In this document: piece by piece, positions 1 through 51,519 of the stretch
How positions within the stretch are numbered: the stretch's first letter is position 1
Layout: every line of letters begins with the position of its first letter
Assembly: GCF_010093225.1 (NCBI RefSeq)
Contig: NZ_PDWM01000008.1
Location: 24,074-88,073, forward strand
Source: Pseudoxanthomonas koreensis
GTDB lineage: Bacteria; Pseudomonadota; Gammaproteobacteria; Xanthomonadales; Xanthomonadaceae
Direction of reading: 5' to 3'
DNA length: 64,000 nt
Position numbers and translations under genes: made by a program
The notes under the pieces: generated by a model
Told to the model about the DNA's origin: nothing
Database searches by the model: none
The model's input: the letters and a program-made list of their open reading frames with translations, nothing else

Positions 1-695
1 CACAGCAGGACGATGTAGCCGAGCAGCGCGCCGACCACGCCCATCCCGGCCTGCGCGCACACCGCCAGCATCAGCGCGAACACGCCCACCGGTGCGGCCA
101 GCAGCACCCAGCGCACGATCACGATCATGGTGTCGGCGATGCCGTGGCACAGGCCCACCACCTGGGCGCGGCGCTCGTGCTCGATGCGGGTGAGGGCGAA
201 ACCGAAGAACAGCGCGAACACCACCAGCGGCAGCATCGCGCCCTGCGCGGCGGCCATCACCGCGTTCGACGGGATCACCCCGCCGATCCACTGCGCCAGC
301 GACGGCGCCGCGGCCGCTTCGGTGGCGGTGGCCGAAGCCTGCAGGGTGGCGGTGAGCTGTGCGCTGCGCGGCACCAGCGCCAGCAACGCCGGCGCCAGCA
401 GCGCGGCATAGGCGGCGAACAGCGCCAGCACTGCCAGGAACACCACCATCGCCCGCCGCGCCACGCGCCCGGAGGCGGCCGCGTCCGTGGCGGTGGCCAC
501 GCCGAGGATCACCAGCGCCAGCACCAGCGGCACCACGGTCATCTGCAGCGCGCTCAGCCACAGCTTGCCCACCGGCTCGGCGATGCCGGCGGCGCCGGCG
601 GCCGCCCCGGGCAGCCAGTGCGCCAGCGCCAGCCCGGCCACCGCGCCGGCGAGCAGCGCCAGCAGTACTCGCGCGGTCGCGCCGGGCCACCTCAT
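1..695 (-). CDS. dicarboxylate/amino acid:cation symporter, DAACS family (N-terminal half; 3' end outside window)
   Basis: This is the N-terminal 231 residues of a sodium- or proton-coupled carboxylate/glutamate carrier of the inner membrane. The translation has a KLWLSALQMTVVPLVLAL stretch and a later VIPSNAVMAAAQGAMLPLVV stretch, both matching the conserved transmembrane blocks of the GltP/DctA (SDF) family. Hydrophobic segments alternate with short loops throughout. The start is ATG at 695-693, preceded by GGAGG at a suitable distance. Family members are about 400-440 residues, so roughly half is visible. It is the last visible gene of a leftward run (NlpC/P60, dipeptide epimerase, RpiR, symporter), 133 bp after the regulator. 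Uptake of glutamate or a similar product of peptide breakdown is an inference from that context; substrate residues near the C terminus are not visible. Confidence 0.82.
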   Translation of the reverse strand, partial: MRWPGATARVLLALLAGAVAGLALAHWLPGAAAGAAGIAEPVGKLWLSALQMTVVPLVLALVILGVATATDAAASGRVARRAMVVFLAVLALFAAYAALLAPALLALVPRSAQLTATLQASATATEAAAAPSLAQWIGGVIPSNAVMAAAQGAMLPLVVFALFFGFALTRIEHERRAQVVGLCHGIADTMIVIVRWVLLAAPVGVFALMLAVCAQAGMGVVGALLGYIVLL

Positions 696-828
696 GGCGC
701 GGCCTCCGCCGGTGCCGGCAGGCGCCCGGGCGCGCGGGGGATGCGGCGGCCACGCAGCGGCCAGGCGAAGCGGAGGGCACGGGGTGGCGTGTCGTGGATC
801 GCGGGCATGCGGGTTCCGGTGCGGCGGG

Positions 829-1707
829 TCAGTTGTCCAGCAGGGGCCGGATGCGGTCGAGGGTGACGCCGAGCTGGCGGTGCCGGTCCGGGTTGGCCTG
901 GCACAGCAGCACGAACAGGAAGTCGAGGAGGTACTGCAGCGAGGAACGGTACAGCAGCAGTTCCACGTGCGGCGCCGGGTCGTGGGCCGAGACCACCAGC
1001 GCGGCGTCGGCGTGCGCGCGCAGCGGGTTGGCGGTGTGCCGGGTGATCGACACCACCTTGCCCTCGCAGGCCTGGAACTGGCGGCTGATCTGCGACAGCT
1101 GCGGCAGCTGGCCGAACTCGGAGAACATCAGCAGCACGTCGCCCGGCCGCGCCGCCGACAGGTTGGCCATCATCAGGATCGGGTCGGCGTGGTGGGCCAC
1201 CAGTACGCCCAGCAGCGACAGGCGCATGGCGAACTCGCGCGCGAACAGGCCGTCGTCGCCCAGCCCGCAGACGAACACCTTGCCGGCGCCGTCGACCAGG
1301 TCGACGATCGCCTCGATCCGCTCGCGCGGGTTGAGCAGCCGGGTTTCCTCCTCGGCCGCGGCCTTGCTCCGGCGCAGCGCCTGCTCCAGCGCGGTCCAGT
1401 CGTCGTGGGCGGCGAGGGGAACGGCGCTGGTGGGGGCGTCGGCGCCGTTGCGCGCCAGCGCCTGGCCGATGCTGTACTTCAGGTCCGGGTAGCCGCGAAA
1501 GCCGAACTTCTGGCTGAACTTGACCACCGAGGACTGGCTGATCCCCAGCGCGCTGGCCAGCTGCTGCGAGGAGTAGTCGCGCAGCAGGTGGGCGTTGTCG
1601 AGGATGAAATCGGCGATGCGGCGTTCGATCGCCGACATCTGGTCGCGTTCGGAGCTGATCTTCACCAGGGGCGGCATGGGTGCGATCTTCATCCGGGTCG
1701 GGCGCAC
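829..1707 (-). CDS. RpiR-family transcriptional regulator (HTH + SIS)
   Basis: A 292-residue regulator with an N-terminal RpiR-type helix-turn-helix (residues about 10-85, including SQQLASALGISQSSVVKFSQ) and a C-terminal SIS phosphosugar-binding fold (about 125-270). RpiR/MurR proteins usually sense sugar phosphates and control neighbouring sugar or murein-recycling genes. The GTG at 1707 was chosen because AGGACGG lies about 8 nt upstream, overlapping the stop of the epimerase gene 16 bp away; an ATG five codons downstream is the alternative. It sits inside the leftward murein-peptide operon, so it is the natural candidate to bind the dyads in the divergent promoter at 4341-4383. The effector is unknown. 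Confidence 0.88.
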   Translation of the reverse strand: MRPTRMKIAPMPPLVKISSERDQMSAIERRIADFILDNAHLLRDYSSQQLASALGISQSSVVKFSQKFGFRGYPDLKYSIGQALARNGADAPTSAVPLAAHDDWTALEQALRRSKAAAEEETRLLNPRERIEAIVDLVDGAGKVFVCGLGDDGLFAREFAMRLSLLGVLVAHHADPILMMANLSAARPGDVLLMFSEFGQLPQLSQISRQFQACEGKVVSITRHTANPLRAHADAALVVSAHDPAPHVELLLYRSSLQYLLDFLFVLLCQANPDRHRQLGVTLDRIRPLLDN

Positions 1708-1723
1708 CTGGCAACCGTCCTGC

Positions 1724-2821
1724 TCAGCGCGCCAGCAGTTCCAGACCGCGGATCTCGCGGATCCCCAGGCCGGGCGCGTCGGTGATGGTGATCTCCGATT
1801 CGTCGAAGATCACCCCGCCCTCGACCGGGTTGAACTGGCCCAGCGACGGGCCGTCCAGGTCGACCTTGGTGATCACGTCGGACTTGGCCACGGCCAGGTG
1901 CACCGCGGCGGCCACCGAGATCGCCGATTCGATCATGCAGCCGATCATGCACTGCACCCCGTACAGGGAGGCGATGTCGGCGATGCGCACCGCGTTGGAG
2001 ATGCCGCCGGTCTTCATCAGCTTGATGTTGATGATGTCCGCGGCGCGGCGCTCGATCAGGTCGAACACCTGGGTCGGGCCGAACACGCTTTCGTCGGCCA
2101 TCACCGGGGTGTGGACCCGCTCGGTGACGTACTTCATGCCCTCGATGTCGGCCGCCTTGACCGGCTGCTCGAGCAGTTCCAGCAGCACCCCGGCGTCCTC
2201 CAGCGCGTGCATCGCGTACACCGCCTGCTTGGCGGTCCAGCCCTGGTTGGCGTCCAGCCGCAGCAGGGCGCGGCCCTCGACCGCGGCGTGGATCGCCTTG
2301 ACCCGCTCGATGTCCAGGCCGATGTCCTTGCCGACCTTGATCTTCAGCGAGTCGAAGCCGCGGTCGACCGCGGCGATCGAGTCGGCCACCATCTTGTCGA
2401 TGTGGTCCACGGAGATGGTGATATCGGTGGTGATCACCGGATCGCCGCCGCCGAGCATCCGGTACAGCGGCGCGTTGTACAGCTGTGCCCACAGGTCGTA
2501 GACCGCGATCTCCACCGCCGCCTTGGCGCTGGTGTTGCGCTCCATCGCACCCTGGATCAGCCCGCAGATGCGGTTGAGGTTGGCGATGTCCTGGCCGATC
2601 AGGCGCGGCTTGATGTGGCGGTCGATGGCCTCGATGATCGAGCCGTGGGTGTCGCCGGTGATCACCGCGGTGGCCGGCGCCTCGCCATGGCCGGTGTGGC
2701 CGCTGTCGGTGCGCACCAGCACCACGATGTCCTCGACCGTGTCGACGGTGCGCAGCGCGGTCTTGAACGGGGTCTTCAGCGGCACGCGCAGCATGCCCAG
2801 TTCGATGTCGGTGATCTTCAT
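1724..2821 (-). CDS. dipeptide epimerase, enolase superfamily (L-Ala-D/L-Glu epimerase type)
   Basis: A cytoplasmic 365-residue enolase-superfamily epimerase. All expected catalytic groups are present: K160-x-K162, metal ligands D190, E218 and D243, the second-face base K267, and the D321-L-D323 motif that holds the free alpha-amino group of a dipeptide in L-Ala-D/L-Glu epimerases (Bacillus subtilis YkfB, E. coli YcjG). That DxD motif is what separates dipeptide epimerases from muconate cycloisomerases and o-succinylbenzoate synthases. The start codon overlaps the stop of the NlpC/P60 gene (ATGA, 2818-2821), implying translational coupling. In B. subtilis the equivalent pair (YkfC endopeptidase, YkfB epimerase) converts murein peptides to L-Ala-L-Glu. 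Substrate is inferred, not proven; other cationic or hydrophobic dipeptide epimerases share these residues. Confidence 0.88.
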   Translation of the reverse strand: MKITDIELGMLRVPLKTPFKTALRTVDTVEDIVVLVRTDSGHTGHGEAPATAVITGDTHGSIIEAIDRHIKPRLIGQDIANLNRICGLIQGAMERNTSAKAAVEIAVYDLWAQLYNAPLYRMLGGGDPVITTDITISVDHIDKMVADSIAAVDRGFDSLKIKVGKDIGLDIERVKAIHAAVEGRALLRLDANQGWTAKQAVYAMHALEDAGVLLELLEQPVKAADIEGMKYVTERVHTPVMADESVFGPTQVFDLIERRAADIINIKLMKTGGISNAVRIADIASLYGVQCMIGCMIESAISVAAAVHLAVAKSDVITKVDLDGPSLGQFNPVEGGVIFDESEITITDAPGLGIREIRGLELLAR

Positions 2822-4308
2822 GGAGTGGCCGGGTTGGGGGAGGGCGCGGGGCGCATGCGCTGGATGCTGGTCATGCGGTCCACGTAGGTCTCGGTGTCGC
2901 CGAACAGCATCGGCTCCAGCGGGGTGACCGAGACGCCGTTGAGGCCGGCGCGCACGCGCGTGCCGTCTTCGCCGCGCCAGCTGCCGCCGCTGGTGTCGTG
3001 GATCATGAAGGCCAGGCCGCGCTGGTGGCCCAGGGCCATCATCACGTGCCCGGGGATGTAGACCAGGTCGCCGACCTGCAACTGGCGCACCGCGGCCATG
3101 CGCGCCTCGCGCGTAGCCTCCGCGTCGAAGCCGATCCGGTCCAGCGCCGGGCTCACCGCCTGGTCGCGGGTGTTGCGCGGGACCAGCACGCCGAAGCTGC
3201 GGTAGATCTCGGAGACGAAGCCGCTGCAGTCGCGCGCGTCGTAGCTGTGGCCCCAGCCGTAGCGTTCGCCGAGGAACTTGAACGACTGCCGGACCAGGTT
3301 GGCCGGGGTCAGCGGCAGGTAGTCGCCGGCGACGTCGGCCGAGCGCGCGACCAGCGCCGGCACCAGCGCCAGGCTGCCGTCGGCGTTGCGCACCGGCAGC
3401 TCGACCACGTGCGAGGCATGCGGGTGCTGGCCGTTGACTGCCTGTGCCGGCGGCCAGTCCGCGCGCAGCGGCAGGCGCACGCCCATGTCCAGCTGCAGCA
3501 CCGACACCCGCGGTTCCTCCGGGGTGTAGTTGGTATGCACGGTGGCGCCGGTGACGACCAGGTAGGGTTCGCGCATGGCGTAACCAAGCACGGTGTCGCG
3601 CGCGCCGGTGGCCACGTGGCGGGCCTCAATCCAGGCCGCATAGCGCTCGCTGGCGACAAACAGCCATTGCCGGTCGCCGCTCTCGTGCAGCACCGCGACC
3701 GCGTCGCCGGGGAACAGCGCCGATTCCTGGAAGCGGTCGATGTCGGTTTCGCCGGCGCTGCTGAACGCGCGCAGGCGGGTGGGGAAGGCGCGCAGGTCGG
3801 CACGGTGCACGACCAGGCCGTAGCGCAGCGGGCGCGTCGCCGGGATCGCGTCCAGCGCAAGCGCGCGCTGCAGCGCGTCAATTTCCTTCTTCGGCACCGG
3901 CTTGCCGTGAACGTCGAACAGGGGGCGGGTCGGCGGCGCCGACAGTGCCTCGATCCGTTCGCGGACGAAAGCGCGCGGCAGCGGATCGGGCAGGGCGGCG
4001 ATGTCGTGGATCGAGCGGTCCTCGGCGCGCATGCGCGCGTTCTGCGCGGCGATCGCGGCGCGGTCGAGGATCAGCCGGTCCGGGTCGGGCAGCTGCGCGA
4101 TCCAGTGCTGCGGGGCCAGGTCGGCCTGGTGGACTTCGATGACCGCGGTCGGGGCGTCGCCGGCCGCGGGCCTGGCGACGGCAACGGTGGCGGCCGGCAG
4201 CAGCGCGGCGAGCAGCAGGGCGCGCGGCCACGGCGCGGCCAGCCACGACCGGGCGTGCCCGGGGCGGGCGCGACGCGGTCCGATCGAAACCACATTGGGG
4301 GTGCTCAT
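2818..4308 (-). CDS. SH3-domain NlpC/P60 cysteine peptidase (putative gamma-D-glutamyl-diamino acid endopeptidase)
   Basis: A 496-residue exported peptidase. Order of parts: N-terminal hydrophobic signal (about 20-45), an N-terminal clip-like region, an SH3b repeat (about 180-240, with FPGDAVAVLHESGDRQWLFV), a second SH3b-like region, then NlpC/P60 (about 335-460). The catalytic triad is visible as Cys361 in the RDCSGF motif, His421 in PGHVMMALG and His437 in MIHD. This matches the NLPC_P60 N-terminal, SH3_6, SH3_7, NlpC_P60 architecture of DvLysin and YkfC-like enzymes that cut D-Glu to diamino acid bonds in murein peptides. The ATG at 4308 is preceded by GGGGAGGA. First gene of the leftward operon; its stop overlaps the epimerase start. 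Confidence 0.9.
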   Translation of the reverse strand: MSTPNVVSIGPRRARPGHARSWLAAPWPRALLLAALLPAATVAVARPAAGDAPTAVIEVHQADLAPQHWIAQLPDPDRLILDRAAIAAQNARMRAEDRSIHDIAALPDPLPRAFVRERIEALSAPPTRPLFDVHGKPVPKKEIDALQRALALDAIPATRPLRYGLVVHRADLRAFPTRLRAFSSAGETDIDRFQESALFPGDAVAVLHESGDRQWLFVASERYAAWIEARHVATGARDTVLGYAMREPYLVVTGATVHTNYTPEEPRVSVLQLDMGVRLPLRADWPPAQAVNGQHPHASHVVELPVRNADGSLALVPALVARSADVAGDYLPLTPANLVRQSFKFLGERYGWGHSYDARDCSGFVSEIYRSFGVLVPRNTRDQAVSPALDRIGFDAEATREARMAAVRQLQVGDLVYIPGHVMMALGHQRGLAFMIHDTSGGSWRGEDGTRVRAGLNGVSVTPLEPMLFGDTETYVDRMTSIQRMRPAPSPNPATP

Positions 4309-4340
4309 CTCGCCGGTCCTCCCCGGGGCGCGGTGCCGAA

Positions 4341-4383
4341 GAATAGTTATTCCGAATATTCGCGCAGTCAAGAATAAATTATT
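4341..4383. promoter_or_regulatory. divergent promoter with three AATA/TATT dyads (candidate RpiR operators)
   Basis: An AT-rich island in a GC-rich background between two divergent operons. It holds three dyads: GAATAGTTATTC (4341-4352), the perfect GAATATTC (4354-4361) and AATAAATTATT (4373-4383). Their centres are 11 and about 20.5 bp apart, close to one and two helical turns. A leftward promoter fits TTGACT (4370-4365) with TAACTA about 16 bp on, so the first two dyads cover its spacer and -10. A rightward promoter fits TTGACC (4382-4387), 17 bp, TACACC (4405-4410), with the third dyad touching its -35. Control of both arms by the RpiR protein encoded at 829-1707 is inferred. Confidence 0.55.
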
Positions 4384-4440
4384 GACCCGGTATCGGGCCC
4401 GTGTTACACCAGCGCTACCACCGGCCGGGGAAGTGTCGTC

Positions 4441-6030
4441 GTGGATGCACGTTGTTGCCAACTTGCCGCACCGAAACAGCCATCGCGCGCCCTGCGCCGC
4501 GGCTGGCGTGCGGCGTGGCCGGCGCTGTGCCTGCTGGCCGCCGTGATCGCGGCGGATGTGCAGGCGGCGCGAGTGCAGGCGGCGGGCGTGCCGGCTTCCG
4601 CGCTGGAGGCGACGGTCGCGGCGGTGGACCGCGGCGACTTCCGTGCCGCCGAGGCGACCATCGCCACGGCACTGTCGCAGCCGGCGCTGCCGGCGGCCCA
4701 GCGCGAGGCGCTGCTGTTCGAACGCGAGCGCATGCGCCGCATCCGCCTGGACTTCACCCTGGACCGCGACGCGGCACTGGCGCAGCTGCGCCGGTCGATT
4801 CCGGACCTGGACGAGGCCGAGTTCGACGCCTGGGACCGTGCCGGGCTGGTCGAACGCATGGACATCGACGGCGAGCCACGCTACTTCAAGCGCGCGATCC
4901 CCAACCTGTACCGGCTCAACGCCGGGGCCGCCGCGCGCCGTGCGCCGCCGGTGAAGCCGTTCAGTGCGGGCCCGTTCGAGTCGCTGCATCCGCACCACGC
5001 CGAGGTGCTGGCCGCCGCGGCCGATGGCGCCACCAGCGTGGCGCCGCGCCGGCTGCGGGTCACCCAGTCGCTGGTGGTCGACGCTGACGCGGTGCCGGCC
5101 GGCGAGACCGTGCGCGCCTGGATTCCCTATCCGCGTGCGATCGACGGCCAGCAGGAAGACATACGCCTGCTTGCGACGGTGCCCGCGGGCGGCCAGCTCG
5201 CGCCGGAAGGCGCGTTGCAGCGCACCGCCTACATGGAGCGCACCGCCGAGGCGGGCAAGCCCACCGGATTCTCGGTGGAGTACGAACTGACCGTGTACGC
5301 GCGCCGCTTCGACATCGACCCGCAGCGCGTGCAGTCCACCCCTGACGATCCGGCGCTGGCGCCGTACCTGGCCGAGCAGCCGCCGCACATCGTCTTCACC
5401 CCGGCGTTGCGCGCGTTCTCCGCGCAGGTGGTCGGCGACGAGACCCGCCCCTACGAAATCGCGCGCCGGCTGTTCGAGGCGGTCGACCGCATCCCTTGGG
5501 CCGGCGCGCGCGAGTATTCGACGCTCTCCAACATCAGCGATCACGCCCTGCACGCCGGCCACGCCGACTGCGGCCAGCAGACCCTGCTGCTGATGGCGCT
5601 GCTGCGGCTCAACGGCATCCCCGCGCGCTGGCAGTCCGGCTGGGTCTATTCCGACGATGCCGTCGGCCACGACACCATGCACGACTGGGGCTGGCTGTAC
5701 CTGGCGCCCTACGGCTGGGTGCCGATGGACGTGACCACCGGGCAGCTGGCCAGCGACGACCCGGCGCAGCGCTGGTTCTACCTCGGCGGCCTGGATGCGT
5801 ACCGGATCGCCTTCAACGACGGCATATCGCAGGAATTCGTTCCGGCCAAGCACCACTTCCGCTCCGAGACCGTGGATTCGCAACGCGGCGAGGCGGAGTG
5901 GCGCGGCGGGAATCTCTACTTCGACCAATGGGACTACCGGTTCGAATGGCAGATGCTGCCAACTGGCAATGACGCCGCAAAAACAGGCGCGAATCACAAC
6001 AACACCACTGTGGGAGAGACACGGGGATGA
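4441..6030 (+). CDS. exported transglutaminase-like superfamily protein
   Basis: A 529-residue protein with an N-terminal export signal (about 15-42, ending near ADVQA) and a C-terminal transglutaminase-like cysteine-protease fold. The triad is visible as Cys377 (HADCGQQ), His414 (MHDWGW) and Asp430 (PMDVTTG). The middle (about 200-330) is a beta-rich region typical of bacterial transglutaminase-like proteins. The start is GTG at 4441 with GGGGAAG upstream; no ATG gives a better signal peptide. It is the first gene of the rightward operon and overlaps the TonB receptor start by ATGA (6027-6030), so the two are probably made together. A role in cutting or cross-linking peptides in the periplasm before or after import is inferred; no substrate is known. 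Confidence 0.82.
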   Translation: MDARCCQLAAPKQPSRALRRGWRAAWPALCLLAAVIAADVQAARVQAAGVPASALEATVAAVDRGDFRAAEATIATALSQPALPAAQREALLFERERMRRIRLDFTLDRDAALAQLRRSIPDLDEAEFDAWDRAGLVERMDIDGEPRYFKRAIPNLYRLNAGAAARRAPPVKPFSAGPFESLHPHHAEVLAAAADGATSVAPRRLRVTQSLVVDADAVPAGETVRAWIPYPRAIDGQQEDIRLLATVPAGGQLAPEGALQRTAYMERTAEAGKPTGFSVEYELTVYARRFDIDPQRVQSTPDDPALAPYLAEQPPHIVFTPALRAFSAQVVGDETRPYEIARRLFEAVDRIPWAGAREYSTLSNISDHALHAGHADCGQQTLLLMALLRLNGIPARWQSGWVYSDDAVGHDTMHDWGWLYLAPYGWVPMDVTTGQLASDDPAQRWFYLGGLDAYRIAFNDGISQEFVPAKHHFRSETVDSQRGEAEWRGGNLYFDQWDYRFEWQMLPTGNDAAKTGANHNNTTVGETRG

Positions 6031-9000
6031 ACAGCAGGATCCTGAGGAAAGCGGCGCTGTGCGTGGCGCTGGGTGCGTGCCTGGGCACGATGGCGCCGCT
6101 GGCGATGGCGCAGAGCGCCACCGGCGCGGTCGCCGGCCGTGCGACCGCGGGCGACCAGATCACGATCGTCAACAACGCCACCGGCGCGACCCACACGGTC
6201 ACCGTCGGCAGGGACGGCAGCTATCGCGTCACCCAGCTGCCGGTCGGTGACTACCGGCTGCAGCTGGTGCGTGACGGACAGCCGGTCGGCGAAGGGGTCA
6301 CCGTCGTGGTCGGCCTGGGTGGCACCACCACCGTCAACCTGGGCGAGGGCGGTGCGCTGACCAACCTGGACGTGGTCGAGGTCGTCGGCTCGCGCGTGGT
6401 CAACCGCGTGGACGTTTTCTCCACGGAGGTCTCCACCAACATCAACCGCGAGGAGCTGGCGCGACTGCCGGTCGAACAGAGCCTGTCGTCGGTGGCGATG
6501 CTGGCGCCCGGCGTGGTGGGCGGAAACGCCTCGTTCGGTGGCATTTCGTTCGGCGGCTCGTCGGTGGCCGAGAACTCGGTGTTCATCAACGGCCTGAACG
6601 TCACCGATTTCTACCGGCGCCAGTCGTTCTCGACCGCGCCGTTCGCCTTCTTCGACCAGTTCCAGGTCAAGACCGGCGGCTACTCGGTAGAGTTCGGCCG
6701 CAGCACCGGTGGCGTAATCAACGCCGTGACCCGCTCGGGCAGCAACGAGCTGCAGGGTGGCCTTGAGTTCACGTTCGAGCCCTCGGCCTGGCAGTCCACC
6801 GCGGAAGACCACTATTTCAATGCGGTCGACGGCGATGGCGTCCCGGTCTCGGCCACCTACCGCTCGAGCCACGACCGCAACAGCTTCATGAAGGCCAACG
6901 TCTGGGCGTCCGGTCCGCTGATCAAGGACCGCCTGTTCCTTTTCGCGATGTACGAACAGCGCGAGAATGGTTCGGGCTACACCAACTCCGCAGGCAGCAC
7001 CTGGTCCGAGGGCGACTCCAGCAACGGCTTCTGGGGCGCGAAGCTGGACTGGAACATCAACGACGACCATCGCCTGGAGCTGCTCGCGTTCTCGGACGAG
7101 GCGGAAACCAACACCGCCGTCCAGACCTACAATTTCGATACGCGCGAAAAGGGCGCCCTCACCGGCGAAACCACCTCGCAGTCCGGTGGCGTCAACGGTT
7201 CGGCGACCTATATCGGCCGCTTCGGCGAGAACTTCACCGCCAAGGCCATGTACGGCGTCAACCGCACCCGCGGCCTGTCGTTCTCCCCGGCCGACGGCCC
7301 CTGCTCGCAGGTCCTGATCGACGCCACCTACAACGCGCGCTGGGTGGCGATGGGCCGTCCTGCGGTCAGCTGCCATCCGAGCACCAGCAGCTCGGTGGTG
7401 GACCACCACGACGAGCGCAAGGTCGGGCGACTGGACTTCGAGTGGGCGCTCGGCGACCACCTGCTGCGCTTCGGCGTCGACAGCGAGGAGATGACCACCG
7501 ACCGCACCACGCGCTATCCGGGCCAGACCCTGATGCGCTACACGGTGTACGGCGCCACCCCCGGTGCCATCCTGGACAACGGCGCCACCGTGCCGGCCGG
7601 CGTCGACGCCATCGTGATGGGCCGCCGGCGCATCGACGGCGGCGTGTTCGAGACCACCGCCAACGCGTACTATCTGGAAGACATCTGGAACGTCACCCCG
7701 AGCCTGGTCCTGAACCTGGGCCTGCGCGTGGACAACTTCGACAACAAGACCGCCTCGGGCGACAGCTTCATCAAGATGGACAACCTGGTGTCGCCACGCG
7801 TCGGCTTCTCCTGGGACATGAAGGATGACGGCACCACCAAGCTGTTCGGCAACCTCGGCCGCTACTACCTGCCGGTCACCAACATCATCAACTACAACTT
7901 CGCCGGCGGCCTGATCGACGAGCGCACCTTCTACCAGCTCGACGGCTGGAACCCGTCCACCAACCCGATCACCGGCGCCAGCTACATGCAGCCGGTGCTG
8001 GGCACGCAGATCGGCCCGGTCGACGACCAGTACAACCTGCCGGTGGACGACCTGCGGCAGAGCGTGGACCGGGACCTCGATGCGGTGTACCAGGACGAGC
8101 TGATCCTCGGCTTCCAGCAGATGATCAACCAGGCCTGGTCGTGGGGCGTCAACGCCACCTACCGGCGCATGCCCAATGCGATGGACGACATCCGCATCAA
8201 CCACACCCCGTGCGGGCCCGTCGGCTACAACCTGTGGCCGATCGGCAACCCGGGCGAGAAGCTGACCATCTGGGGCAACGACGACATCGGCTGCGCCACC
8301 GAGGGCTGGATCACCGTCGACACCTCGAAGGACGGCTATATCAAGGGCGGCAGCGGCGAGGTCGTGGGCTATTCCGATCCCAAGCGCACCTACACCTCGG
8401 TCGAGTTCCAGATCGACCGCGCCTGGGACGACAAGTGGGCGTTCAATGCGTCCTACCTGTGGTCGAAGTCGGAGGGCAACCACGAAGGCCCGGTGAACTC
8501 GGACACCAACTACGCCGACACCGGCATGGTCCAGCACTGGGACCACCCGGCCAACAACGAGGACTACGGCCCGCTGTTCAATGACCACCGCCACCAGATC
8601 AAGCTGCGTGGTTCGTACAAGCTCAACGAGATGTGGTCGTTCGGCTCGACCCTCACCGCGCAGTCCGGTGGCCCGATCACCGCGCTGGGCGTGGCCTGGC
8701 CCAACGACAGCACCGGCGCGGCCAGCTTCGTGACCGAAGGTTCCGGCGGCGGCTCGTTCTGGCATTGCGTGCAGAACTGCTCGGGCAACTGGAGCCAGCG
8801 CGTGTTCGAGTACTCCGGCCGCGGTGCCTTCGGCCGCATGCCGTGGACCTACGACTGGGGCGCCAGCGCCACCTGGACCCTGCCGTCGCCGGACACCGAC
8901 CTGCGGATCCGCCTGTCGGTCTACAACCTGCTCAACGAGCAGGAAGTGATCAACCAGCGCGCACGCTACGAGAAGGGCCCGGGCGTCACCCGTGGCCTGT

Positions 9001-9065
9001 TCGGCACCGGTACCCGCTGGCAGTCGCCGCGCTACGCGCAGCTGGTGCTGACCTGGAACTTCTGA
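6027..9065 (+). CDS. TonB-dependent outer-membrane receptor, Oar-like
   Basis: A 1012-residue outer-membrane receptor. A signal peptide ends at A28 (APLAMA-Q). Residues about 30-110 form a CarboxypepD_reg/Cna-B-like domain, followed by the plug (about 120-250) and a long beta-barrel finishing in LVLTWNF with the C-terminal aromatic residue needed for BAM insertion. Large receptors with this N-terminal domain are the Oar class, expanded in Xanthomonadaceae and usually tied to protease or peptide uptake. Translation is coupled to the transglutaminase-like gene by ATGA. The neighbours (NlpC/P60, VanX-type dipeptidase, serine hydrolase) point to muropeptides or other D-amino-acid peptides as cargo; this is inference only. 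Confidence 0.92.
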   Translation: MNSRILRKAALCVALGACLGTMAPLAMAQSATGAVAGRATAGDQITIVNNATGATHTVTVGRDGSYRVTQLPVGDYRLQLVRDGQPVGEGVTVVVGLGGTTTVNLGEGGALTNLDVVEVVGSRVVNRVDVFSTEVSTNINREELARLPVEQSLSSVAMLAPGVVGGNASFGGISFGGSSVAENSVFINGLNVTDFYRRQSFSTAPFAFFDQFQVKTGGYSVEFGRSTGGVINAVTRSGSNELQGGLEFTFEPSAWQSTAEDHYFNAVDGDGVPVSATYRSSHDRNSFMKANVWASGPLIKDRLFLFAMYEQRENGSGYTNSAGSTWSEGDSSNGFWGAKLDWNINDDHRLELLAFSDEAETNTAVQTYNFDTREKGALTGETTSQSGGVNGSATYIGRFGENFTAKAMYGVNRTRGLSFSPADGPCSQVLIDATYNARWVAMGRPAVSCHPSTSSSVVDHHDERKVGRLDFEWALGDHLLRFGVDSEEMTTDRTTRYPGQTLMRYTVYGATPGAILDNGATVPAGVDAIVMGRRRIDGGVFETTANAYYLEDIWNVTPSLVLNLGLRVDNFDNKTASGDSFIKMDNLVSPRVGFSWDMKDDGTTKLFGNLGRYYLPVTNIINYNFAGGLIDERTFYQLDGWNPSTNPITGASYMQPVLGTQIGPVDDQYNLPVDDLRQSVDRDLDAVYQDELILGFQQMINQAWSWGVNATYRRMPNAMDDIRINHTPCGPVGYNLWPIGNPGEKLTIWGNDDIGCATEGWITVDTSKDGYIKGGSGEVVGYSDPKRTYTSVEFQIDRAWDDKWAFNASYLWSKSEGNHEGPVNSDTNYADTGMVQHWDHPANNEDYGPLFNDHRHQIKLRGSYKLNEMWSFGSTLTAQSGGPITALGVAWPNDSTGAASFVTEGSGGGSFWHCVQNCSGNWSQRVFEYSGRGAFGRMPWTYDWGASATWTLPSPDTDLRIRLSVYNLLNEQEVINQRARYEKGPGVTRGLFGTGTRWQSPRYAQLVLTWNF

Positions 9066-9079
9066 TCGGCCAACCGGAA

Positions 9080-9105
9080 GGCGCGGCTCCAGCGGGAGCC
9101 GCGCC
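9080..9105 (+). terminator. intercistronic hairpin after the TonB receptor gene
   Basis: A perfect 11-bp inverted repeat (GGCGCGGCTCC / GGAGCCGCGCC) with a 4-nt loop begins 15 bp after the receptor stop and 25 bp before the serine hydrolase start. No T-run follows, so a full intrinsic terminator is unlikely. It may lower expression of downstream genes or protect the 3' end of the receptor mRNA. Confidence 0.5.
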
Positions 9106-9130
9106 GACCGGACCGGGGACAGGAACCGAA

Positions 9131-10735
9131 ATGCGAAGGACCCTCCCGTTTGCGGCCGCCCTGGCGGCCGCTTTTCTTTTTCCGGCCGCTGCGGCCATCG
9201 CCGCTGCGCCCGCGGCTTCGCCGCCGGTGGATGCGGATGCACGAGCCGCGATCGCCCGCGCGGTGGACGAGACCGTTGCCCGCTACGGCCTGCCCGGCAT
9301 CGCCGTCGGCGTGATCGAGGACGGCCGCGTCGTCGCGGTGGAAACACGCGGCGAGCTGGCCGCCGGCGCCGGCCAGCCGGTCACCTCCGCCACCCTGTTC
9401 AAGATCGCCTCCAACACCAAGGCGATGACGGCCGCAGTGCTGGCGCGGCTGGTCGACCAGGGCCGGCTGCGCTGGGACGACCCGGTGGTGAAGCACCTGC
9501 CGCAGTTCCGCATGCACGACCCGTGGGTCACCGTGAACATGCAGGTGCGCGACCTGCTGATCCACAACAGCGGCCTGGGCCTGGGCGCCGGCGACCTGAT
9601 GCTGTGGCCGGAGCCCAACACCTTCACCCGCGCCGACGTGATCGCCGGGCTGGAACACCTGAAGCCGGTCACCAGCTTCCGCTCCGGTTACGCCTACGAC
9701 AACCTGCTCTACGTGGTCGCGGGCGAGCTGGCTGCGGCGGTGGCGGGCGTGCCCTACGACGAACTGGTGCGGCGCGAGATCTTCGTGCCGCTGGGCATGG
9801 AGGGCTGCCGGGTCGGCAGCTGGCGCCTGGACCAGGCCGGCAGCGTGGCCCTGCCGCACCGGCGCGTGGACGGGCGCAACATGCCGATGGACGAGCGCGG
9901 CCGCGGCGACGGCGGCATGGTGCCCGACATCACCTCGATGGCCGCCGGCGGCATCCGCTGCGGCGTGGACGACATGCTCAAGTGGATGCGGATGTGGCTG
10001 GACCCCCCCGATCCCTGGCTGTCGCCGGGGCAGCGGCGCGCGGTATGGACCGCGCACATGCCGATGCCGGTGAGCACGCGCATGCGCGAATGGGACGGCA
10101 CTCACTTCTCCGCCTACGGTTACGGCTGGCGGCTGTCGGACGTGGGCGGCGAGTGGAAGGTCGCGCACACCGGCACGCTGGACGGGATGTATTCCTCGCT
10201 GGTGCTGTTGCCGGACAGGCGCAGCGGCTTCGTGATCCTGATCAACGGCGAAGGCGAGGCCGCGCGCACCGCGCTGGGACAGGCGCTGCTGCAGCGCTAT
10301 ACCGATCCGGCTTCCGGCCACGGCGTGGCCCACTATGCGGGCCTGCTCGAGCGCGAGCGTGCACAGCGCGCCGAGGCGCAGCCGCTGCCGGACACCTCGT
10401 CGCGGCGGCCGGCGCGGCGTGACGAAGCGGCGCCGCTGCTCGGGGTCTGGCGCGACCCGTGGTTCGGCGAGGTGGCGCTGTGCCCGCGCACCGACGGCAT
10501 CGGTTTCGTTTCCACCCGTTCGCCGCTGATGGCGGGGCGGGTGATGCGCCTGGCCGACGGTCGCTGGTTGGTGGACTGGGATGCCGATGGCGTCGATGCC
10601 GAAGCCTGGCTGCATCCGCCTTCCCGCGGGCGCGACGATGGCGCTACGCTGGCCCTGTCCCACGTGGATCCGGATGCGGACTTCAGTTACGACTATGCGG
10701 ACCTTGCCTTCACCCGCCTGCGCGACTGCCCCTGA
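9131..10735 (+). CDS. exported serine hydrolase, beta-lactamase/S12 (class C-like) family
   Basis: A 534-residue protein with a signal peptide (MRRTLPFAAALAAAFLFP onward, ending near residue 27). The penicillin-binding fold motifs are complete: S94-N-T-K97 (SxxK), Y189-D-N191 (YxN) and H346-T-G (HTG replacing KTG, as in many S12 enzymes). A C-terminal beta-rich domain (about 430-534, GVWRDPWFGEVAL onward) resembles the extra domain of beta-lactamase-related hydrolases and D-aminopeptidase relatives. The family includes DD-peptidases, D-aminopeptidases, esterases and lactamases. Sitting between a TonB receptor and a D-Ala-D-Ala dipeptidase, action on D-amino-acid peptides or murein stems is the likeliest role. 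Start ATG 9131; an upstream extension would only overlap the receptor in another frame. Confidence 0.88.
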   Translation: MRRTLPFAAALAAAFLFPAAAAIAAAPAASPPVDADARAAIARAVDETVARYGLPGIAVGVIEDGRVVAVETRGELAAGAGQPVTSATLFKIASNTKAMTAAVLARLVDQGRLRWDDPVVKHLPQFRMHDPWVTVNMQVRDLLIHNSGLGLGAGDLMLWPEPNTFTRADVIAGLEHLKPVTSFRSGYAYDNLLYVVAGELAAAVAGVPYDELVRREIFVPLGMEGCRVGSWRLDQAGSVALPHRRVDGRNMPMDERGRGDGGMVPDITSMAAGGIRCGVDDMLKWMRMWLDPPDPWLSPGQRRAVWTAHMPMPVSTRMREWDGTHFSAYGYGWRLSDVGGEWKVAHTGTLDGMYSSLVLLPDRRSGFVILINGEGEAARTALGQALLQRYTDPASGHGVAHYAGLLERERAQRAEAQPLPDTSSRRPARRDEAAPLLGVWRDPWFGEVALCPRTDGIGFVSTRSPLMAGRVMRLADGRWLVDWDADGVDAEAWLHPPSRGRDDGATLALSHVDPDADFSYDYADLAFTRLRDCP

Positions 10736-10745
10736 CCTGCGCGGC

Positions 10746-11480
10746 GTGGCGCGACGTGGCCATGCGATCGCACGCGCCGCATCGGCTTGCCTGCTGCTGG
10801 CCGCGGTGCCGTGCTTTGCCGCGGACCCGGTGGTCTCGCCGGCGGCCGACCCGGCCGCGGCCGGCATGGTCGACGTGCAGGCGCTGGCGCCTGACATCGA
10901 AGTGGAGATGCGCTACGCCAGCAGCAACAACTTCACCGGTGCGCCGGTGCCCGGCTATGCCGCCAACCGCTGCTACCTGCTGCGGCCGGCGGCCGAGGCG
11001 CTGGCCCGCGTGCAGGCCGGACTGCGCACCGAAGGCATGGGCCTGCGCGTCTACGACTGCTACCGGCCGGCGCATGCGGTGCTCAGCTTCGTCGACTGGG
11101 TCGGGTGGCCGGACGATCCGGCGTTGAAGGCACGCTGGTATCCGCGGGTGGAGCGGACTGCGTTGATGCCCGGCTATATCGGCCGCGTCTCCGGCCACAG
11201 CCGCGGCGCGACCGTCGACCTGACCCTCGTCCGCTGTGGTGGCGAAACCGCTGGCGAGCGTGGCTGCGAACCGCTGGACATGGGCACGCCCTACGACTTC
11301 TTCGACCCGCTGGCCCACACCGATGCGGCGGAGATCACCGGCGTGCAGCGGGACAACCGGTCGCGCCTGGTCGACGCGATGGCCGCGCAGGGCCTGGCGA
11401 ACTACCCGAAGGAATGGTGGCACTACACCCTGCAACCGGAGCCCGATCCGGGCACCGCCTACGATTTCCCGGTGCGCTGA
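10746..11480 (+). CDS. D-Ala-D-Ala dipeptidase, VanX/M15D family, exported
   Basis: A zinc dipeptidase that hydrolyses D-Ala-D-Ala. The VanX signature is present: zinc ligands H151 and D158 in SGHSRGATVDLTL, and E223-W-W-H226, where E223 is the catalytic base and H226 the third zinc ligand. The GTG at 10746 gives a clean signal peptide (VARRGHAIARAASACLLLAAVPCFA) and a 10-bp gap to the previous gene; the alternative ATG at 10695 would overlap the serine hydrolase by 41 bp and give a long polar N terminus. Export and the lack of vanH/vanA neighbours argue for nutrient scavenging rather than glycopeptide resistance. Last gene of the rightward operon. Confidence 0.87.
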   Translation: MARRGHAIARAASACLLLAAVPCFAADPVVSPAADPAAAGMVDVQALAPDIEVEMRYASSNNFTGAPVPGYAANRCYLLRPAAEALARVQAGLRTEGMGLRVYDCYRPAHAVLSFVDWVGWPDDPALKARWYPRVERTALMPGYIGRVSGHSRGATVDLTLVRCGGETAGERGCEPLDMGTPYDFFDPLAHTDAAEITGVQRDNRSRLVDAMAAQGLANYPKEWWHYTLQPEPDPGTAYDFPVR

Positions 11481-49701: not shown

Positions 49702-51519
49702 ATGAGCGCCGACGTCGTCGAGCCCAAGGCCGCGGTCCCGCCGCAGCCGCCCGCGCCACCCGAGTTCCCGCAGGTCCTCGGCCATCCGCGTCCGCTGTGG
49801 ATGCTGTTCATGACCGAGTTCTGGGAGCGGTTCGCCTTCTACGGCATGCGCTGGGCGCTGGCCCTGTACATCGTCGCCCAGTTCTACGGCGGCGACAGCG
49901 CCGGCGAGGCGTCGGCCAGCCGGCTGTATGGCGCCTACCTGGCGCTGGTGTATGCGGCGGCGCTGTTCGGCGGTTACGTCGCCGACCGCATCATCGGCTA
50001 CCAGCGGTCGATCCTGTTGGGCGCCGTGGTGATGGCGGTCGGCTTGTTCATGATCGCCGTGCCGAACGAACAGATATTCAAGTTCGGCCTGGCCACGATC
50101 ATCGCCGGCAACGGCCTGTTCAAGCCGAACATCTCGACCATGGTCGGCAAGCTGTACACGGCGGGCGACGAGCGCCGCGATTCGGGCTTCACCCTGTTCT
50201 ACATGGGCATCAACCTCGGGGCGATGATTGCACCATTGCTGACCGGTTGGCTTGCCGAACGCATGTTCGGCGGTTCGCCCGAGATGCCGGCGTACAAGGC
50301 CGTGTTTATCGCCTCCGGCGTCGGCATGGTGATCAGCCTGGTGTGGTTCTGGTTCGGTCGCCGCCAGCTGGGCGGTATCGGTCGTCCCCTGGAGGGAGCA
50401 GCGAGTCCCCAGCGCGTGCTGTGGGTGACCTTGGCCACCTTGGCGGCGATCCCGGTGATCTACTACCTGCTGGGAGGTGGCTTCGCTGAGCTGGTGGCCA
50501 AGCTGCTGTTGAACGTTGGGGTGATTGATCCGGTGCTCGTCAATGGCGTGCTGGACTACGAAAAGACCCTGTCGGCCGCGACGGTGCTGGCCTGGATCCT
50601 GGGCGGACTGTTCCTGGCCTTGTGCGTGCTGATCCTGGTCGAAGGCTTCCGCGATGGTGCGGTCCGGCGCGACATGGCCATCGCCATGCTGATCATCTTC
50701 GTGTTCAACGTGCTGTTCTGGTGCTTCTTCGAACAGGCCGGCAGCTCGTTCAACTTCCTTGCGCAGAACATCGTCAACCGCGACTTCAGTGGCTGGATCT
50801 TCCCGGTCGGCTGGTTCCAGTCGGTGAATTCGGTGGCGATCATCGCCTTGGCGCCGGTGCTGGCCTGGCTCTGGGTCAGGCTCAGCAAGATTGAGCCCAA
50901 CCTGGGCGCCATGCGCCTGGTTCGCTTGGTTGTGGGCGTGGTTTCGACCCTGTTCGCGATCCTGGCGATGCACCGCCTGAGCGGTCTGGGCGTGCTGCCG
51001 GGCTGGGCTTTCTTCGCGATCTCCGCGCTCATCCTGGTCCTGGGCGCGTGGGCGACGCGGATCGATTTCGGCAACGCCGCCGGCACGCTCAACCCGTCGA
51101 TCCCGCGCAAGTTCGGCTTCGGCATCATCTTCAACGGCCTCGCCTTCCTGTTGCTGATGTTCGCCCTGTCCAGCCTGGTCGATCCGCAGACCCTCAAGAT
51201 CCCGTTCTGGACCCTGTTCATGGTCTACGTGATCCAGTCGGTCGGCGAGCTGTGCCTGTCGCCGATTGGCCTGTCGATGGTGACCAAGCTGGCGCCGGTG
51301 CGCCTGGTCGGCTTCGGCATGGGCGGCTGGTTCCTGTCGACCGCCATTGGCAACAACCTGTCGGGCATCTTTGCCAGCCACATCAGCGGCGAAACCGGCA
51401 TGACCGTGGAATCGGCCTTCACCGGCTACACGCTCGGGTTCTGGATCCTGATGGGCAGCGGCGTGCTGCTGTTCCTGATCGCACCGCTGATCCAGAAGCT
51501 GATGCACGGGGTGAAGTAA
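49702..51519 (+). CDS. POT/PTR-family proton-coupled peptide transporter
   Basis: A 605-residue major-facilitator transporter for di- and tripeptides. The proton-coupling motif EFWERFAFYGMRWALALYI (ExxERF), GGYVADRIIGYQRSILLG and FTLFYMGINLGAM are POT signatures; about 14 membrane segments are seen, with an extra hairpin common in bacterial DtpT-like proteins. The ATG at 49702 follows AAGGAAG; a TTG seven codons upstream is possible. The stretch about 50200-51050 uses more A/T-ending codons than its neighbours. It could deliver the dipeptides made by the murein locus, but the distance (40 kb) makes that weak. Confidence 0.93.
   Translation: MSADVVEPKAAVPPQPPAPPEFPQVLGHPRPLWMLFMTEFWERFAFYGMRWALALYIVAQFYGGDSAGEASASRLYGAYLALVYAAALFGGYVADRIIGYQRSILLGAVVMAVGLFMIAVPNEQIFKFGLATIIAGNGLFKPNISTMVGKLYTAGDERRDSGFTLFYMGINLGAMIAPLLTGWLAERMFGGSPEMPAYKAVFIASGVGMVISLVWFWFGRRQLGGIGRPLEGAASPQRVLWVTLATLAAIPVIYYLLGGGFAELVAKLLLNVGVIDPVLVNGVLDYEKTLSAATVLAWILGGLFLALCVLILVEGFRDGAVRRDMAIAMLIIFVFNVLFWCFFEQAGSSFNFLAQNIVNRDFSGWIFPVGWFQSVNSVAIIALAPVLAWLWVRLSKIEPNLGAMRLVRLVVGVVSTLFAILAMHRLSGLGVLPGWAFFAISALILVLGAWATRIDFGNAAGTLNPSIPRKFGFGIIFNGLAFLLLMFALSSLVDPQTLKIPFWTLFMVYVIQSVGELCLSPIGLSMVTKLAPVRLVGFGMGGWFLSTAIGNNLSGIFASHISGETGMTVESAFTGYTLGFWILMGSGVLLFLIAPLIQKLMHGVK

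Follow-up and report, generated by a model that had tools for sequence, protein, structure and literature searches.

A conserved lysobacterial gene block with a predicted role in the uptake and breakdown of peptidoglycan stem peptides

Degradation of murein (peptidoglycan) peptides by ykf-type systems is known, and several described systems resemble parts of the locus analysed here, a block of divergent genes in the first 11,480 nucleotides of a 64,000-nucleotide stretch of Pseudoxanthomonas koreensis DNA (contig NZ_PDWM01000008.1, positions 24,074 to 88,073; hereafter the window). In ykfBC of Bacillus the epimerase gene adjoins that of a peptidase cutting between γ-D-Glu and meso-diaminopimelate (mDAP), as it does in the block, and for B. 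cereus an exported YkfC with a cytoplasmic epimerase has been proposed (PMC2954226, used here in excerpts), the same layout as predicted for the block. The same excerpts place the peptidase–epimerase pair in Acidobacterium, Solibacter, Bacteroides and Gramella (PMC2954226). Unlike ykfBC, the block encodes a four-domain peptidase with Asn at the place of YkfC Asp256, and adds genes for a TonB-dependent receptor, a VanX-type peptidase, an S12 hydrolase, a transglutaminase-like protein and a regulator. The MpaA–YcjG–PepD route of E. coli follows the same chemistry, from tripeptide to L-Ala-D-Glu, epimerization and dipeptide cleavage, and its peptidase, the metallocarboxypeptidase MpaA, is related to YkfC neither by sequence nor by structure (excerpts of PMC2954226); unlike that route, the block has an exported peptidase and a receptor gene. 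The N-acetylglucosamine clusters of Caulobacter also combine a TonB receptor with a carrier of the inner membrane and with enzymes acting on a nutrient from cell walls, but serve a sugar where the enzymes of the block would serve a peptide, and the part of that paper's text that was searched mentions no epimerase or NlpC protein (PMC13046382). Lastly, these organisms also have the MurD2/MurL pathway, which concerns the Glu centre that the block epimerase would act on; MurL is ATP-driven and works one way, L to D, on the UDP-N-acetylmuramic acid (UDP-MurNAc) dipeptide, whereas the block epimerase is a member of the enolase superfamily with free dipeptide as its predicted substrate. Among the matches listed in a literature search that left most subscription journals outside, no paper dealt with the locus or with MurL together with recycling. 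The arrangement is presented as new, as are a pair of palindromes at the divergent promoter, the exchange of a DAACS carrier for an APC carrier, and the connection with wall synthesis through MurD2/MurL.

We propose, with a probability of roughly 0.7, that this conserved locus imports and dismantles peptidoglycan stem peptides, and that its cytoplasmic epimerase makes L-Ala-L-Glu. The TonB receptor would take up stem peptides or small muropeptides, which the S12, VanX-type and transglutaminase-like enzymes, joined in relatives by a YkuD protein and an amidase, may trim, as their families suggest. The four-domain NlpC protein is predicted from its fold and catalytic residues to cut the γ-D-Glu-mDAP bond in the periplasm. 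Dipeptide and amino acids would then cross the inner membrane through a DAACS carrier, an APC carrier or a PTR2 permease, and the epimerase, judged by its YkfB match, Arg24 and DxD motif, would flip the D-Glu centre of L-Ala-D-Glu to give L-Ala-L-Glu. A few relatives are predicted to send the freed mDAP on to lysine through a LysA encoded in the locus. Action on peptidoglycan stems, already suggested in an initial annotation of the window, is supported by the same epimerase features, by synteny, and by the amidase, YkuD and LysA genes of relatives; the genomic context supports this reading well, and the murein genes of relatives do so better than the window alone. If it is true, the locus is a Gram-negative ykf murein-peptide pathway running from outer membrane to cytoplasm, it gives an Oar-like TonB receptor a defined substrate class, and it offers a way to ask how racemase-less bacteria regain glutamate from D-Glu stems.

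The initial annotation made its reading depend on synteny in related genomes, and the block is indeed conserved across many lysobacterial relatives. A scan of species genomes for the epimerase confirmed 95 places, the best 80 of which represent 78 distinct loci; 68 are lysobacterial, and the other 10 (Firmicutes and Chloroflexi records) were excluded from gene counts. Genes after the epimerase were counted where at least 4.5 kb follow it (60 loci) and those before it where at least 9.3 kb precede it (61 loci), and 56 loci were readable on both sides. In 38 of these 56 all seven non-carrier genes occur together with a carrier of either kind, and 20 match the window in all eight genes; the strand pattern relative to the epimerase is unbroken in all 38 for the six non-carrier genes compared. 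The NlpC gene is present in 68 of 68 lysobacterial loci. After the epimerase, the RpiR regulator is found in 60 of 60, YkuD in 54, a DAACS carrier in 35 and an APC permease in 24, the two carriers replacing one another (DAACS only, 34; APC only, 23; both, one; neither, two). Before it (n = 61) stand the receptor (59), S12 (60), transglutaminase-like (54) and VanX-type (at least 45) genes, the last count being a lower bound because inserted genes push VanX outside the fetched stretch in some loci; a second TonB receptor (11), Amidase_2 (seven) and LysA (four) are rarer, and some loci hold further genes. Most loci lie in records whose titles name Stenotrophomonas, Luteimonas or Pseudoxanthomonas; one is titled Lysobacter, and Xanthomonas is among the other names. 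The idea in the initial annotation that the stems might be those of lysed prey, in keeping with predatory Lysobacter relatives, gains no support from this distribution. One record titled Bacillus subtilis SK7B5 (L082) carries a Stenotrophomonas-type locus with an epimerase 87% identical, and is probably a contaminated or mislabelled assembly. In Pseudoxanthomonas sp. NC8 (L100), the best matches to the NlpC protein, the epimerase, the receptor and the regulator span only 28–64% of the proteins, reflecting decay or sequencing errors.

A survey of 198 family genomes, which are related and thus not 198 independent events, scored the epimerase and NlpC at E 1e-60. Both are found in 123 genomes, the epimerase alone in one, NlpC alone in 12 and neither in 62 (totals 124 and 135, respectively); at G081:C7:105558-106642 the epimerase match consists of two overlapping pieces in different frames. 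Eleven reduced loci were also hand-picked from distant genomes for low identity or for the lack of one of the NlpC–epimerase pair, and are not a sample. NlpC is kept in 10 of them, the epimerase in seven (in L129 without NlpC), YkuD in seven, a DAACS or APC carrier in eight, VanX in four (L125, L128, L133, L134) and the amidase in two (L124, L125). S12 occurs only in L131, the transglutaminase-like gene and the regulator in none (E 1e-8), and the second TonB receptor as one 41% fragment (L124). From these gene sets it follows that the periplasm-to-cytoplasm part is the steadier one and the outer-membrane module a supplement present in some family members.

The closest solved relative of the epimerase is YkfB of B. 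subtilis (338.7 bits), and we predict from sequence that the product is an L-Ala-D/L-Glu epimerase of the YkfB type. The catalytic lysines, Lys160 and Lys162, are invariant in 68 of 68 relatives; Asp321-x-Asp323, located where the initial annotation had claimed it, is invariant together with Arg24 in all 67 of the 68 relatives with alignment coverage. We take Arg24 and the DxD motif to have the roles that they have in Ala-Glu epimerases. Muconate cycloisomerase and o-succinylbenzoate synthase were rejected as alternative identities, their matches being weaker. Two Tissierellia records (L095:8516-12448 and L096:1-3650) carry an epimerase 58–60% identical, flanked by genes for an M20 dipeptidase and for a carrier; the dipeptidase neighbour counts in favour of the proposed reading. 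In L095, the one run through the models, this dipeptidase is PepV by model, and the carrier has DcuC/DctM matches. The other block proteins have no match in either record, and a transfer of the epimerase between phyla is possible.

The NlpC/P60 protein has Cys361, His421 and His437 (counted from the ATG at 4308) as first annotated, and all three are unchanged in every relative that the alignment covers (67 of 68). Tyr350, Trp352, Asp360 and Ser362 are also invariant, and are the equivalents of Tyr226, Trp228, Asp237 and Ser239. Asn379 fills the place of YkfC Asp256 in 67 of 67 covered relatives; in the YkfC subfamily this Asp is linked to the free L-Ala amine (excerpts of PMC2954226), and an identity as YkfC was rejected on that ground. 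The predicted structure is one fold of four domains, an N-terminal c-clip, two SH3b domains and NlpC/P60, as in its nearest solved relatives DvLysin (3M1U) and PnpA (6SQX), with which the architecture is shared over 401 and 404 residues. DvLysin likewise has Asn at the Asp256 place; PnpA, unlike the block protein, has Ser. The YkfC–YkfB logic invoked in the initial annotation thus holds for the epimerase, but its partner is of the DvLysin/PnpA kind and is predicted, on modelled structure, to be a γ-D-Glu-mDAP cutter. That resemblance could mean that NlpC is mainly a weapon or wall-remodelling enzyme, the rest of the block serving wall shape or antibiotic response, for PnpA is secreted by the type II system and cuts competitors' murein (PMC7860986, in the excerpts used). 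We regard this as highly improbable: the NlpC gene overlaps by 4 bases that of the cytoplasmic epimerase, an enzyme of no use to a weapon, and in 58 of the 60 relatives readable there the gene for a carrier comes after them.

The remaining enzymes of the block are less sharply defined. The M15 protein fits its 'VanX-type' label by sequence (1R44, 137.9 bits) and keeps HSRGxxxD and EWWH, which we take to supply the zinc site and the base as in VanX, but it falls under the curated equivalog cut-offs for VanX/DdpX dipeptidases (176.7 versus 320 for the VanX model, and 111.8 versus 176). In the transglutaminase-like protein Cys377, His414 and Asp430 are invariant (25 sequences). Searching by sequence gave no solved relative at E 0.01, and the best 120 of 3767 matches were mostly annotations of the same kind with no function; by fold it resembles 3ISR, a putative cysteine protease, and TgpA. 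The pseudomurein endoisopeptidase PeiP was set aside as a fold relative, its match (E 0.018) being too weak for use. In relatives, the YkuD gene stands between regulator and carrier. A sequence search with its product for solved relatives gave two chance-level matches only (up to E 1). YkuD-type proteins include the LD-carboxypeptidases Pgp2 and Csd6, and by analogy the YkuD protein might suit D-Ala trimming; the excerpts of PMC8038945 describe Pgp2 as such a carboxypeptidase. When the accessory enzymes of relatives (Amidase_2, YkuD, LysA) were run through family libraries, all three were found to concern murein or its parts. The LysA genes of loci L049, L060 and L099 lie above the equivalog cut-off (468.8, 457.5 and 471.4 versus 297.9), and each of these genomes holds a second LysA match in a frame of 870–873 codons, a bifunctional-enzyme size, two above the cut-off and the third at 293.6. 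The genomes of L072 and L035, with no LysA in the locus, have only the long-frame kind above it, and P. koreensis has a bifunctional aspartokinase/diaminopimelate decarboxylase (1332.5 bits versus 802); the comparison left out L091, the fourth locus with LysA. A system for general peptide or protein scavenging, handling varied peptides with murein as one among them, would account for S12 and M15 proteins under equivalog cut-offs, carriers of amino-acid families and a fold close to that of 3ISR. It would not account for Arg24 and the DxD motif being kept in every covered epimerase, or for accessory enzymes that point to murein, and we consider it quite unlikely.

The handling of D-glutamate gives the epimerase a further rationale. 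The P. koreensis genome (3.05 Mb, 93 contigs) encodes MurL (NF041275, 815.8 bits versus a cut-off of 700) beside a MurD whose Glu195 and Arg356 align with the E. coli residues changed in MurD2, and no MurI match was found in it. In MurD2, Glu stands for Asp182 and Arg for Lys348 (PMC8788868, in excerpts). The same paper names further lineages with MurL, Devosia and Micromonospora among them, in which MurI is more variably present. Across the family survey, MurL is found in 195 of 198 genomes (E 1e-60), Mpl above its cut-off in 193, and MurI above its cut-off in two, with weak matches in 63 more; the two (G028 and G100) both have MurL and both lack the epimerase. With MurL, a MurD2-type MurD and no MurI, D-Glu freed from stems would have no obvious way back other than within intact tripeptides, by way of Mpl, and since free D-Glu has no evident use in these cells the epimerase gains a clear role: it is likely the exit for D-Glu, with Mpl as the alternative. 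We tentatively extend this to a glutamate cycle, a possibility on which we would not yet rely, in which MurL converts L to D at the UDP-MurNAc-dipeptide and the epimerase converts it back at free L-Ala-D-Glu, free D-Glu never appearing and the TonB receptor opening the cycle to the walls of other bacteria. An absence of Mpl was considered and rejected, the gene being present in P. koreensis, as is AmpG (above cut-off in 20 of 21 genomes searched); recycling of the cell's own wall therefore keeps its usual route. This bears on the rival view that the locus regains peptides shed in growth, its receptor recapturing leakage. Exported murein enzymes do meet the own wall first, and reduced loci without a close receptor exist; with AmpG and Mpl already in place and a TonB receptor being most useful for outside material, we think own-wall recovery unlikely as the main purpose, although the two uses are compatible. 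As to transport, the genome has five PTR2 peptide-permease matches, spread over three places, and dipeptides could thus be imported without the DAACS carrier. The PTR2 match in the window (about 50005–51387, plus strand) comprises two overlapping pieces of one 621-codon frame.

The RpiR regulator likely controls both operons at two palindromes, to which it is predicted to bind. The predicted starts are separated by 132 bases, and both palindromes lie within these. Across 69 regions (the window and 68 loci), 47 carry both palindromes, 17 one and five neither, two of the last being contig ends of 51 and 81 bases; the spacing is constant, 31 bases start-to-start, in all 47. Flanking bases are also conserved in the 63 regions selected for carrying the first palindrome. 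The core of the second, AATANNTATT, is present three times in the genome, once at the block, and its reversed control not at all; the other two (C16 and C59) were rejected as operators, having flanks AT-rich by eye and no paired site. The 'MurR-class' label given to the regulator found no support, the match scoring 92 bits where the MurR model demands 408. MurR is, as we understand it, tied to the MurQ etherase, and P. koreensis has only three MurQ matches far under the cut-off, which is exceeded in one of the 21 genomes searched, not that of P. koreensis.

Several observations weigh against the proposed import and dismantling of stem peptides. The epimerase lies far under the curated Ala-Glu epimerase cut-offs of NCBIfam (251.5 versus 500 and 106.7 versus 343), although these two equivalog models (Thermotoga-type and E. 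coli-type) represent other branches. It is missing at E 1e-60 from 74 of 198 genomes, 12 of which keep the NlpC gene, and with MurL in 195 genomes and the epimerase in 124 it is not obligatory; with Mpl so widespread, tripeptides could be re-ligated and not degraded. Outside the lysobacterial group, the 10 loci contain no other block gene (E 1e-8). The receptor is variable among relatives (48–91% identical), has no close match in the 11 reduced loci, where the only one is at 22% (L130), and could carry other peptides. Both carriers are of amino-acid families, so neither is an evident dipeptide importer. VanX cuts free dipeptide, so free D-Ala-D-Ala would be needed; nothing at residue level connects the transglutaminase-like and S12 proteins with murein, and the YkuD match is weak (24.7 bits versus a cut-off of 23.4, with no NCBIfam match). 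Activity, transport and regulation are all inferred.

The features of the block are collected in Table 1. All eight genes first annotated were confirmed as open frames, each matching the family to which it had been assigned (frame check and family profile search), and the 4-base overlap of the transglutaminase-like and receptor genes is present, as is that of NlpC and epimerase. The locus had also been called complete, which is wrong because a ninth gene, of the YkuD family and intact in 54 of 60 relatives, is lost in the window, leaving only a stub.

Table 1. Features of the block, with window coordinates
Feature	Position	Strand	Evidence
SDF/DAACS carrier, N-terminal part; gene continues past window edge	3..695	-	Pfam SDF; whole gene 262.7 bits
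YkuD-family stub, both ends kept, middle gone	696..808	-	Two similarity blocks versus intact L034 gene
RpiR-family regulator with SIS domain	829..1707	-	HTH_6 75.7, SIS 47.6 bits; 60/60 relatives
Predicted YkfB-type L-Ala-D/L-Glu epimerase; no signal peptide evident	1724..2821	-	YkfB 1JPM/1TKK 338.7 bits
Exported four-domain SH3b/NlpC-P60 peptidase, DvLysin/PnpA type (predicted)	2818..4308	-	SH3_6 and NLPC_P60
Palindrome O2 GAATAGTTATTCC, predicted operator	4341..4353	none	
Palindrome O1 AATAAATTATT, predicted operator	4373..4383	none	31 bases start-to-start from O2, NlpC direction
Exported transglutaminase-like protein, start codon uncertain	4441..6030	+	Transglut_core 61.7 bits; 54/61 relatives
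TonB-dependent receptor, CarboxypepD_reg-like N-terminus	6027..9065	+	OMP_b-brl_4, Plug; 59/61 relatives
Exported S12 hydrolase (beta-lactamase/D,D-peptidase fold)	9131..10735	+	Beta-lactamase family 210.3 bits; 60/61 relatives
Exported VanX-type M15 dipeptidase, GTG start a guess	~10746..11480	+	Peptidase_M15 127.2 bits; at least 45/61 relatives

The CarboxypepD_reg match of the receptor, which we take to be Oar-like, lies just under the cut-off. The S12 hydrolase has SNTK, YDN and HTG motifs, presumably in the roles usual for this family. The carrier gene, cut by the left edge of the window, is whole in the genome (L003:9436-10695, 419 codons). A long frame (L003:6898-9402), GH3 glycosidase-like by eye, points towards this carrier gene and stands beside the locus in many relatives.

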